Assembly (NCBI GenBank): GCA_019240405.1
Contig: JAFAYL010000013.1
Location: forward strand, 248,001-312,000
Reading direction: 5' to 3'
DNA length: 64,000 nt
Source of the DNA: Acidobacteriaceae bacterium
GTDB taxonomy: Bacteria; Acidobacteriota; Terriglobia; Bryobacterales; Bryobacteraceae
The translations under genes and the position numbers were made by a program. Below, in pieces: positions 60,438-63,070 of this stretch. A model generated the notes under the pieces. It was not told where the DNA came from, ran no database searches, and saw nothing but the letters and a program-made list of their open reading frames with translations. Positions within the stretch are counted from its first letter, which is position 1, and each line of letters starts with the position of its first letter.

Positions 60438-60543
60438 TGTGATTCCACTGTCACGGAAGGATGAGGAGTCGTCAACTCGGAAACCCTCGTAAAGAGGTTG
60501 AAAGGCGCGGCTCTGGTCAATGAGCCGAGGTGCGCGTGATGGC

Positions 60544-60549
60544 TATACT
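60544..60549 (+). promoter_or_regulatory. Possible -10 element for LarE
   Basis: TATACT lies six bases before the ATG at 60556 and inside the longer ORF-track reading. If real, it would favour the shorter start and a leaderless transcript. Confidence 0.35.
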
Positions 60550-60555
60550 TCGGAT

Positions 60556-61431
60556 ATGGCGGCGCTGGTTACGCTTGGGGGCGATGCCGCTCAGTTCGAC
60601 TCCGTAGAGTTGGGGCGGAAAGAGGAATCGCTTTTCGCGGGTATTCGCGGCTTGGGCCCGGTGATTGTCGCGTATTCGGGCGGCACCGATTCGGCTTATT
60701 TGGCTTGGGCTGCGTGGCGGGTTCTGGGTGACGATGCTCTCGCGATTACAGCCGATTCACCGTCTATTCCGGAGTCGCACAAGCGTGATGCAGAGGCGTT
60801 TGCGCGCGAGTGCGGATTCAGGCATGAGTTCATACGGACATATGAGTTCGAGAATCCGGATTACGTGAAGAATGATTCCGACCGGTGCTTTCATTGCAAA
60901 GACGAGCTGTTCAGGCGCTTGGAAGCATATGCGGCAGAGCGGCAGTTTGCCGACATTGTGTACGGCGTGAACAAGGATGATTTGGGAGATTACCGTCCGG
61001 GCCAGTGGGCGGCGAAGTTGCACGGGGTGAAGGCACCACTGGCTGAGGCTGGGCTGACGAAGGCGGAGATTCGCGAATTGGCGCGCAGGGCGGGTCTGGC
61101 GATATGGAACCGGCCGGCTGCCGCATGCCTTAGCTCGCGAGTGCCGTACGGAATCGCTGTCACGCCGGAGACGATCAAGGTGATCGAGCACGGCGAAGAG
61201 GCGATTCGAGAGCTTGGCTTCAGGCAGTTTCGGGTTCGTATCCACGGAGATCTCGCGCGGATTGAAATCGCGAAAGACGAGTTGCCGAAGGCGCTGACGA
61301 TGGAGAGCGCTCAGGAGCTGACCGCGATTTTTAAACGGCTCGGATTTCTGTACGTGACGCTAGATTTGGAAGGATACCGGCAGGGCTCACTGAATGCAGT
61401 TTTGCAGCGAGCTGGCGAGAACCGCGGTTAA
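60556..61431 (+). CDS. larE: LarE-type sulfur transferase
   Basis: A PP-loop ATPase (SGGTDS) that installs sulfur on the nickel-pincer precursor of lactate racemase. LarE features include DSPSIPESHKRDAEAFA, GVNKDDLGDYRPGQWAA, KAPLAEAGLTKAEIRELAR and AACLSSRVPYG. Three cysteines are present (C123 and C126 in DRCFHC, and C203 in ACLSSR, numbering from the upstream ATG at 60520). This is the pattern of LarE proteins that hold a [4Fe-4S] cluster instead of sacrificing one cysteine. The shorter start at 60556 is chosen because a -10 element seems to lie between the two ATGs. A LarA-type protein is encoded 18 kb upstream. It overlaps the convergent FmdB-type gene by four bases. Confidence 0.9.
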   Translation: MAALVTLGGDAAQFDSVELGRKEESLFAGIRGLGPVIVAYSGGTDSAYLAWAAWRVLGDDALAITADSPSIPESHKRDAEAFARECGFRHEFIRTYEFENPDYVKNDSDRCFHCKDELFRRLEAYAAERQFADIVYGVNKDDLGDYRPGQWAAKLHGVKAPLAEAGLTKAEIRELARRAGLAIWNRPAAACLSSRVPYGIAVTPETIKVIEHGEEAIRELGFRQFRVRIHGDLARIEIAKDELPKALTMESAQELTAIFKRLGFLYVTLDLEGYRQGSLNAVLQRAGENRG

Positions 61432-61754
61432 TCCGACTTTGCTTCGGAAGAAGTAGATTTCTTTTCCGAGGAACTGGACGCTGGAGCGGGTGTGTCTGTG
61501 GCGCCTGAGGGTTTCGCTTCGGGCGCCGTCTTGTCGCCCGCTTTCTTGTCGCCTCCGTCCTTTTCAGCCTTGGAACCGCGCGCATAATCGGTGACGTACC
61601 AGCCGCTGCCCTTAAATTGAAGCGCGGGAGCGGAAAGCACCCGGTGGACCCGGCCGCCGCACTTTTCGTGATTGGTAAGGGGCGGGTCAGAAAACTTCTG
61701 CATCACCTCAAACAGGTCACCGCAATTTTCGCACTGGTACTCGTAGAGTGGCAT
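61428..61754 (-). CDS. FmdB-type zinc-ribbon protein
   Basis: A short protein beginning MPLYEYQCENCGDLFEVMQKFSD, the FmdB regulatory/zinc-ribbon family signature, followed by KCGGRVHRVLSAPALQFKGSGWYVTDYAR. The C-terminal 50 residues are low-complexity (Lys, Ala, Ser, Pro), as is usual in the family. Function is not established; it may act on gene regulation or as a chaperone. It starts 23 bp after the S41 peptidase-like gene, so they are cotranscribed. Confidence 0.9.
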   Translation of the reverse strand: MPLYEYQCENCGDLFEVMQKFSDPPLTNHEKCGGRVHRVLSAPALQFKGSGWYVTDYARGSKAEKDGGDKKAGDKTAPEAKPSGATDTPAPASSSSEKKSTSSEAKSD

Positions 61755-61777: not shown

Positions 61778-63070
61778 TTAACGCTCCGGGTGATGCGGAG
61801 GACTCTTTTCGAGAATCGGCGGCCGATCGCTTGTGACAGTGGGTGTGTTCTCGCCGCTTGTCAACTGGGCGAGAGTTGTCTTTCCGGTAACCAGATCGAT
61901 GGACTGCTTCAGCAGATTGTCTTCGGTGCTCTTCGGGGCTGTTCCCGGAATTGGATTGCCGTCCTGATCGAGCTCGGGCCCGTTATCGTTTTCGGCGAGC
62001 TGAACGGAGGGAACGACGCCCGTATCCTGAATTGCTTTGCCGCCGGGTGAGTAGTATTTTGCGACCGAGAGAATGACGGCCCCGCCATCTTCCATCTGAA
62101 TTGTTTTGCGGAGACTTGCATCACCGTAGCTTCGCTCGCCGACAATCTGGGCTCGCTTGTCGTCGAGAAGCGCAGCGGCCGCAATTTCGGCACCGCCCGC
62201 CGTCGCGCGATCGGTGATGACGACCAGCGGACCCTTCCAGAGATCGTCCTGGGACTTGGCGTCAAATTCTGTTTGCGCGGTTTTCTGACCTTTGAGCGCG
62301 GCAATTTCGCCTGTGTCGAGGAAGAGATTGGCGAGTGGGACTCCCATTTCAGGATCGCCCGTAGAGCAATGCCGGAGATCGAGCACGATGTACTTCGCTC
62401 CCTGTTTCTTCAGGTCTTGCAGCCTTGCTTTGGCTTCGTCGATTCGATTCGCGGCCAAGCTAGTCACGTGCAGATATCCGACTTTTTCGGGCAGAAGCTT
62501 CTCTACAACTTGAGGAAATGCGATGACGGCCCGGCGGAGAGTGATTTTTTGAGGTTCCGGGCTGCGAAGGCGCAAGACGGTCACGTCGACTGCGGAATTG
62601 GGATCTCCTCGAAGGAGCTGCTCGGCGTAAGCGAGCGGCATGTCGCGGGTGGCGATGCCGTTGATGCTCTCGATGAGATCGCCAGTCGTGATGCTCGCTT
62701 GCTCGGCTGGGGAACCGGGCAAGGCGTCGACTACCGCGACGTAGCCGTAGCGCTTTGCCAAGATGAGGCCCACTCCGGCTTTGGCGAAATCTTGAGTTTT
62801 TTCATATTGTCGGTATTGATCGGCGTTCAAATAACTGGCAAAAGGATCAACCGACTCGAGAAGGCCGTTGATTGCGCCTAAGGTAACGCTCTTCATGTCC
62901 GGTTCTTCGACGTATTCCAACTTAATGCGCTCAAGAACTTCTGTATAGACCTTCAGATGGCCATAGACGTCGTCTGGCCCGACAGCGCGTCCGGTTCGAG
63001 CGCCTATCAAGAGGAGAACGACGACGCAAGTTGAACTTGCAAGAATGGTCCATTTAAAACGGCTGTTCAT
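61778..63070 (-). CDS. S41 (CtpA) family protein lacking the Ser/Lys dyad
   Basis: A signal-anchor (RFKWTILASSTCVVVLLLIGA) is followed by a peptidase-type N-terminal helical region, a PDZ domain (GVGLILAKRYGYVAVVDALPGSPAEQASITTGDLIESING) and a C-terminal S41 core. In active CtpA proteins the segment before AEI reads SASxSE, with the catalytic Ser three residues before Glu. Here it is RATAGGAEI, placing G292 at the Ser position. The Lys of GKGS is replaced by D317 in ERSYGDAS. The gene is therefore predicted to encode a catalytically dead paralogue, possibly a scaffold in the periplasm. It precedes the FmdB-type gene. Confidence 0.88.
   Translation of the reverse strand: MNSRFKWTILASSTCVVVLLLIGARTGRAVGPDDVYGHLKVYTEVLERIKLEYVEEPDMKSVTLGAINGLLESVDPFASYLNADQYRQYEKTQDFAKAGVGLILAKRYGYVAVVDALPGSPAEQASITTGDLIESINGIATRDMPLAYAEQLLRGDPNSAVDVTVLRLRSPEPQKITLRRAVIAFPQVVEKLLPEKVGYLHVTSLAANRIDEAKARLQDLKKQGAKYIVLDLRHCSTGDPEMGVPLANLFLDTGEIAALKGQKTAQTEFDAKSQDDLWKGPLVVITDRATAGGAEIAAAALLDDKRAQIVGERSYGDASLRKTIQMEDGGAVILSVAKYYSPGGKAIQDTGVVPSVQLAENDNGPELDQDGNPIPGTAPKSTEDNLLKQSIDLVTGKTTLAQLTSGENTPTVTSDRPPILEKSPPHHPER

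Follow-up and report, generated by a model that had tools for sequence, protein, structure and literature searches.

Does a CtpA-like protein with Gly and Asp in place of its Ser/Lys dyad still act as a protease and, if not, what is it kept for? The question is raised by an open reading frame in a 64,000-nucleotide stretch of an Acidobacteriaceae genome, hereafter the window (GenBank assembly GCA_019240405.1, contig JAFAYL010000013.1, positions 248,001 to 312,000). A preliminary description had read the product as a pseudoprotease, possibly a substrate trap or scaffold, in an operon with an FmdB-type zinc ribbon protein. The features concerned, in window coordinates and residue numbers of the window protein, are as follows.

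61778..63070, minus strand: pseudo-CtpA (S41 pseudoprotease), 430 aa, ATG start; open reading frame, Pfam S41 and PDZ matches, AF2 model and CtpA fold match.
62993..63064, minus strand: N-terminal hydrophobic helix, residues 3-26; AF2 helix and hydrophobic sequence, putative export signal or membrane anchor.
62789..62965, minus strand: N-terminal dimerisation region, residues 36-94; within the pseudo group defined below, constraint is strongest here.
62780..62782, minus strand: Lys97, replacing the hinge Phe (Phe105 of H. pylori CtpA, HpCtpA); alignment.
62570..62770, minus strand: PDZ domain, residues 101-167; Pfam PDZ_6 at 114-167.
62003..62485, minus strand: S41 core fold, residues 196-356; Pfam PF03572.
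62360..62362, minus strand: Thr237, replacing the P1-binding Gly (Gly246 of P. aeruginosa CtpA, PaCtpA); alignment.
62195..62197, minus strand: Gly292, replacing the nucleophile Ser; codon GGC, alignments.
62120..62122, minus strand: Asp317, replacing the general-base Lys; codon GAT, alignments.
61428..61754, minus strand: zinc ribbon protein of the FmdB family, starting 23 nt after pseudo-CtpA; Pfam Zn_ribbon_8, TIGR02605.

The architecture of the S41 family of CtpA (CTP-3) proteases is present in the window protein, namely the S41 fold, the PDZ domain and the N-terminal dimerisation region. Pfam matched Peptidase_S41 (1e-33) and PDZ_6 (3e-10), and several CtpA/Prc NCBIfam models matched, all below their own cut-offs. 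An AF2 model built with 74 relatives reached a pLDDT of 91, and its best PDB matches in Foldseek were CtpA. AF2, Pfam and the fold match thus agree that the PDZ domain, the hydrophobic helix and the surrounding fold are kept, as the preliminary description had stated. The protein is predicted to be exported and is probably tethered to the membrane.

Both catalytic features, the nucleophilic Ser and the general-base Lys, are absent. Alignment with the PaCtpA structure 7rpq and with 7rqh, the S302A mutant whose sequence differs at the nucleophile, paired Gly292 with Ser302 and Asp317 with Lys327, the very positions assigned to them at first reading. The flanking segments ATAGGAEI and YGDAS align free of gaps, and the window protein holds no alternative Ser/Lys pair. 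An alignment with E. coli Tsp also puts Gly292 and Asp317 on the Ser and Lys. The preliminary description had allowed for a misplaced alignment with an intact Ser and Lys elsewhere; the sequence of the S302A crystal and the gap-free flanks rule this out. Thr290 was considered as a substitute nucleophile and rejected, the same column being Ser or Thr in active enzymes.

The losses extend to substrate binding and activation. After DLR, where the canonical substrate strand reads NNPGG, the window protein has HCSTG and has lost Pro-Gly-Gly. In the activation relay the hinge Phe has become Lys97 and the His corresponding to PaCtpA His84 is Phe77; Arg154 of the PDZ domain is retained here and is variable across the wider group. 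In PaCtpA, S302A and K327A each abolish activity and G246M cripples the enzyme (PMC11021448), while HpCtpA F105R is locked in the resting state (PMC12749690). No protease activity is expected of the window protein.

We searched 297 Acidobacteriota genomes, with three further retrievals, and took the best match per genome. In nearly all Acidobacteriota genomes sampled, the best S41 match lacked the dyad. Another 25 genomes, picked for a weak best match, were profile-searched with one further retrieval; most held a shorter dyad-less S41 protein (mostly 360-490 aa) beside a canonical Ser/Lys S41 protein of 500-700 aa. Among these 25, a dyad-less S41 protein was not found in G001, G034 and G176, and those in G004 and G102 were doubtful. 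Canonical proteins with Ser and Lys (SK) are also present in nearly all genomes checked; the window genome has eight S41 matches, of which the two best (L001, L002) keep both residues.

For all later comparisons the pseudo group comprises 119 dyad-less S41 proteins, drawn from 105 genomes of 57 Acidobacteriota families and from 14 named loci. Not one of the 119 has Ser and Lys together; the pairs found instead are GR, GE, GD, GL, GA, GQ, DD, NS, WT, RW and others. The close named relatives of the window protein are Bryobacterales MAGs, L132 showing 63% identity over the tree columns, and a loss private to one MAG is ruled out by the absence of the dyad throughout the relatives. The pseudoprotease reading is strongly supported by this shared loss. 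What the relatives conserve is the loss of the dyad. The particular substitutions, whose conservation the preliminary description had put forward for checking, vary: even among close relatives in the clade of the window protein (L132, L138, L154, L135), several members have Asp or Asn at the nucleophile position where the window protein has Gly292.

To look beyond the phylum, we scanned named GTDB genomes from one PDZ motif, a seed that may miss rarer cases; relatives came from Cyanobacteria, Pseudomonadota, Chloroflexota and Bacillota, among others. L142 (Arg/Glu) and L192 (Ser/Thr) apart, all of these relatives carry Ser/Lys. The same two were the exceptions when 12 non-Acidobacteriota genomes were examined in full, every other S41 protein listed being SK. 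L142, together with L261 of the same genome, comes from a MAG labelled Alphaproteobacteria, with the NPGG loop intact and canonical copies alongside; judged from its sequence, it is an independent and more recent dyad loss. L192 and L258, from a Chloroflexi MAG, retain Ser and have Thr for Lys, another separate case. Two further labels drew attention. A contig of a MAG labelled Acidimicrobiia (L129) carries an acidobacterial pseudo-CtpA with EnvC, RuvX/MltG and ThrRS neighbours, and the taxon label is probably wrong; the S41 protein of a MAG labelled Tatlockia (Legionellaceae; L187) groups inside Cyanobacteria in the tree described next, a probable binning error.

In a tree of 184 rows, from which the columns around both catalytic residues had been removed, one branch (97% SH-aLRT) separated the 119 acidobacterial dyad-less proteins from 63 SK proteins, L142 and L192. 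The canonical S41 proteins of Acidobacteriota themselves fall on the SK side. At least three changes of dyad state are needed, one each for the pseudo group, L142 and L192. The SK proteins are spread over phyla, which implies a root among them; on that rooting the pseudo group would be one clade with one loss. Its deep branches are not well resolved, and long branches occur among them.

Gene neighbourhoods were counted at 78 pseudo-group loci. A gene named EnvC-like by homology, its product having a coiled coil and M23 in Pfam, lies directly upstream on the same strand in 35 of the 78, and an SddA-type deacetylase (divergent; Polysacc_deac_2, PF04748) directly downstream in 16. The complete order envC-ctpA-sddA, with a dead protease, is found at 14 of the 78 loci. 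P. aeruginosa has envC-ctpA-PA5135 with an active CtpA (PMC12569750), and E. coli has envC-sddA (PMC12440217). Divergent RuvX/MltG genes lie upstream in 24 loci and PBP1A downstream in 13; the RuvX, MltG and ThrRS neighbours may reflect shared synteny rather than function. The window locus departs from the operon, with a histidine kinase upstream in place of EnvC and FmdB downstream in place of SddA. The septal peptidoglycan link therefore rests on relatives, since EnvC is not adjacent in the window's clade. That clade has lost EnvC from the locus, and FmdB is the obvious candidate partner there. The FmdB neighbour singled out by the preliminary description is real, and is the next gene in 10/10 members of the clade. 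The association arose late and is specific to the clade, EnvC, SddA and other peptidoglycan genes being the telling neighbours across the wider group; as the key partner, FmdB was rejected because it follows pseudo-CtpA solely in that clade.

Six loci (L281, L284, L316, L317, L118 and L291) have a long TPR protein downstream of pseudo-CtpA. The TPR proteins tested match LbcA (PA4667) among solved structures, a non-specific match because designed TPR proteins score higher. Should this protein prove to be an adaptor of the LbcA type, these loci would encode it together with the dead protease.

Where selection now acts was examined by comparing columns of the 119 pseudo-group proteins with 61 canonical ones, 327 columns being ranked by conservation. 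In the pseudo group the Lys column, Lys in 61/61 canonical proteins, has dropped to rank 319 of 327, and the P1-Gly column (PaCtpA Gly246), equally invariant in the canonical set (Gly in 61/61), to rank 323 of 327. At the nucleophile column, Ser in all 61 canonical proteins, 97 of the 119 have Gly. The hinge Phe column is Phe or Tyr in 52/61 canonical proteins and mostly Lys, Pro, Ala, Thr or Gln in the pseudo group; the His84 column is likewise replaced. Asp231, Arg233, Glu295, Gly311 and Gly316 are retained, as is PDZ Gly101 (116/119), and the dimerisation-region columns Tyr36, Val45, Tyr53, Val54, Gly65 and Gly69 have gained constraint; Tyr53, Gly65 and Gly69 are the residues of this region that vary least. 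Relative entropy was calculated from equal-sized random samples and depends on set sampling. For the dimerisation region, PDZ domain and core, respectively, it was 0.93, 0.97 and 1.04 among pseudo-group proteins; the canonical S41 proteins of Acidobacteriota gave 1.27, 1.01 and 0.90, and other canonical ones 1.19, 0.95 and 0.96. The dimerisation region is thus the most conserved part of the pseudo group and the core the least, whereas canonical S41 proteins show the reverse. In PaCtpA the dimerisation region forms the dimer and binds the adaptor LbcA, and activation runs through it (PMC11021448).

The predicted conformation was compared with solved CtpA subunits. The window model matched resting subunits, with TMt values of 0.81-0.84 to 9ku0 (F105R) and 0.67 to 4c2e, better than active ones (0.57-0.58 to 8sxe_A, 8sxf_A, 8sxg_A and 8sxh_A; 0.53 to 4c2c). 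As a control, L001, a canonical paralogue from the same genome modelled in the same way, matched the active subunits (0.80-0.83 to the A chains of the 8sx structures, 0.64 to 4c2c) better than the resting ones (0.52-0.55 to 9ku0, 0.50 to 4c2e). With one best model each, this is suggestive of a pseudoprotease that adopts the resting CtpA conformation and a canonical paralogue that adopts the active one.

The simplest reading, which we hold at a little over an even chance, starts from an ancestral operon of the order envC-ctpA-sddA. Its CtpA would have become catalytically inactive early in acidobacterial history, while the operon itself persisted, and would have been retained to act by binding, scaffolding or regulating the remodelling of septal peptidoglycan without proteolysis. 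Pseudo-CtpA would dimerise through its N-terminal region, held in the resting conformation, and would bring together, or restrain, septal peptidoglycan enzymes and their activator (EnvC, amidases, the SddA deacetylase), bound through the dimerisation region and the PDZ domain. PBP1A or others may have become its partners later, in Terriglobia. The further-reaching version we regard as evenly balanced: CtpA would have become an obligate non-proteolytic part of the EnvC machine, its resting fold fixed, its function moved from the core to the dimerisation region and its connections rewired to PBP1A and FmdB in Terriglobia, making it a phylum-wide cell-division pseudoprotease.

Of the other explanations, the best placed is that the dead CtpA adjusts proteolysis as an inhibitor or decoy, either by pairing, via the dimerisation region, with the canonical S41 protease of the same cell or by competing with that protease for its adaptor. 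A canonical SK protein is at hand in nearly all genomes checked, the region under raised constraint is the one that carries the LbcA site used in PaCtpA activation (PMC11021448), and LbcA-like TPR proteins stand downstream in the six loci above. However, the paralogues are distant, sit on separate branches and are not encoded together, the dimerisation region is the least conserved part of the canonical paralogues, and designed TPR proteins outscore the TPR match. We consider this explanation unlikely.

Somewhat less likely still is a substrate trap, in which the PDZ domain and groove would sequester the C-termini or chains of peptidoglycan hydrolases. The laboratory variant CtpA-S302A, which pulls down MepM and lytic transglycosylases (PMC6050968), offers a precedent, and the PDZ fold and Gly101 are kept; but the substrate-pairing strand (PGG) and the hinge for the active, substrate-holding state have decayed, and the AF2 model is in the closed resting state. 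The preliminary description had left trap and scaffold side by side, as an inference. The scaffold is favoured by the data, because constraint lies in the dimerisation region while the substrate-binding strand and activation hinge have decayed, a pattern unlike that expected of a trap holding substrates in the active groove.

It is improbable that the old S41 fold has acquired a different chemistry or, as in IRBP, serves to bind a small ligand. Thr290 and Glu295 are almost invariant and IRBP turns up as a distant solved relative, but the Lys and P1-Gly columns drift freely, and no new residue has become fixed around the former active site, because the Thr290 and Glu295 positions are conserved (Ser/Thr and Glu) in ordinary S41 proteases too. 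A decaying pseudogene or sequencing artefact, to which the lost catalytic residues might point, is refuted, because a loss common to every one of the 119 relatives excludes chance or sequencing error and intact frames in these relatives, together with strong purifying selection (dN/dS 0.024-0.144 in 14/15 close pairs, 0.24 in L010/L011), mean that the gene is not decaying.

The scaffold reading can be set against known systems. The CTP-3 protease CtpA of P. aeruginosa, which works with LbcA (7rpq, 8sxe-8sxh), shares the domain order of dimerisation region, PDZ and S41 core, the fold and the place in the envC-ctpA-PA5135 operon (PMC12569750), but its Ser302, Lys327, Gly246 and His84 are all replaced in the window protein. 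H. pylori CtpA (9jr1, 9ku0) has the same fold, and its resting subunits are matched by the window model (TMt 0.84 for F105R); it is, however, an active, self-contained protease, and Lys97 of the window protein stands where it has Phe105, the residue that permits exit from the resting state. IRBP (retinol-binding protein 3) has an S41 fold without proteolysis, as here, and a weak sequence match to the window protein; it differs in being a eukaryotic ligand carrier of repeated modules. Its S41 folds bind retinoids. CspC and CspA of C. difficile are bacterial dead proteases kept for signalling, of the subtilisin type and thus of another family and process. In Agrobacterium, ATU2773 is an SddA-like deacetylase without metal ligands in the envC operon, for which a regulatory role was proposed (PMC12440217); the dead member of the operon is the deacetylase there and the protease in Acidobacteriota.

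We found no earlier description of S41 pseudoproteases or of acidobacterial CtpA in the open-access journal literature covered. In databases these genes will appear as S41 peptidases, and a nearly universal acidobacterial gene therefore carries a misleading function. If the scaffold reading is true, the envC-ctpA-sddA operon would work with a CtpA that is dead across an entire phylum, the protease fold itself would have a septal job, and the role of CtpA besides cutting would become testable. The pseudo group provides a natural set of putative resting-state CtpAs with many different catalytic-site substitutions.

Some local details were also seen. The LytM motif is broken in the EnvC-like protein of L116 (SNGVTI) and intact in that of L118 (HPGLD). 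L113 and L114 have, immediately upstream of pseudo-CtpA, a secreted protein resembling VWA-domain proteins, in the position held by EnvC elsewhere. In the window, a gene for LarE, a sacrificial sulfur transferase (TIGR00268, 305 bits; 60520-61431, plus strand), is convergent to the pseudo-CtpA/FmdB pair.
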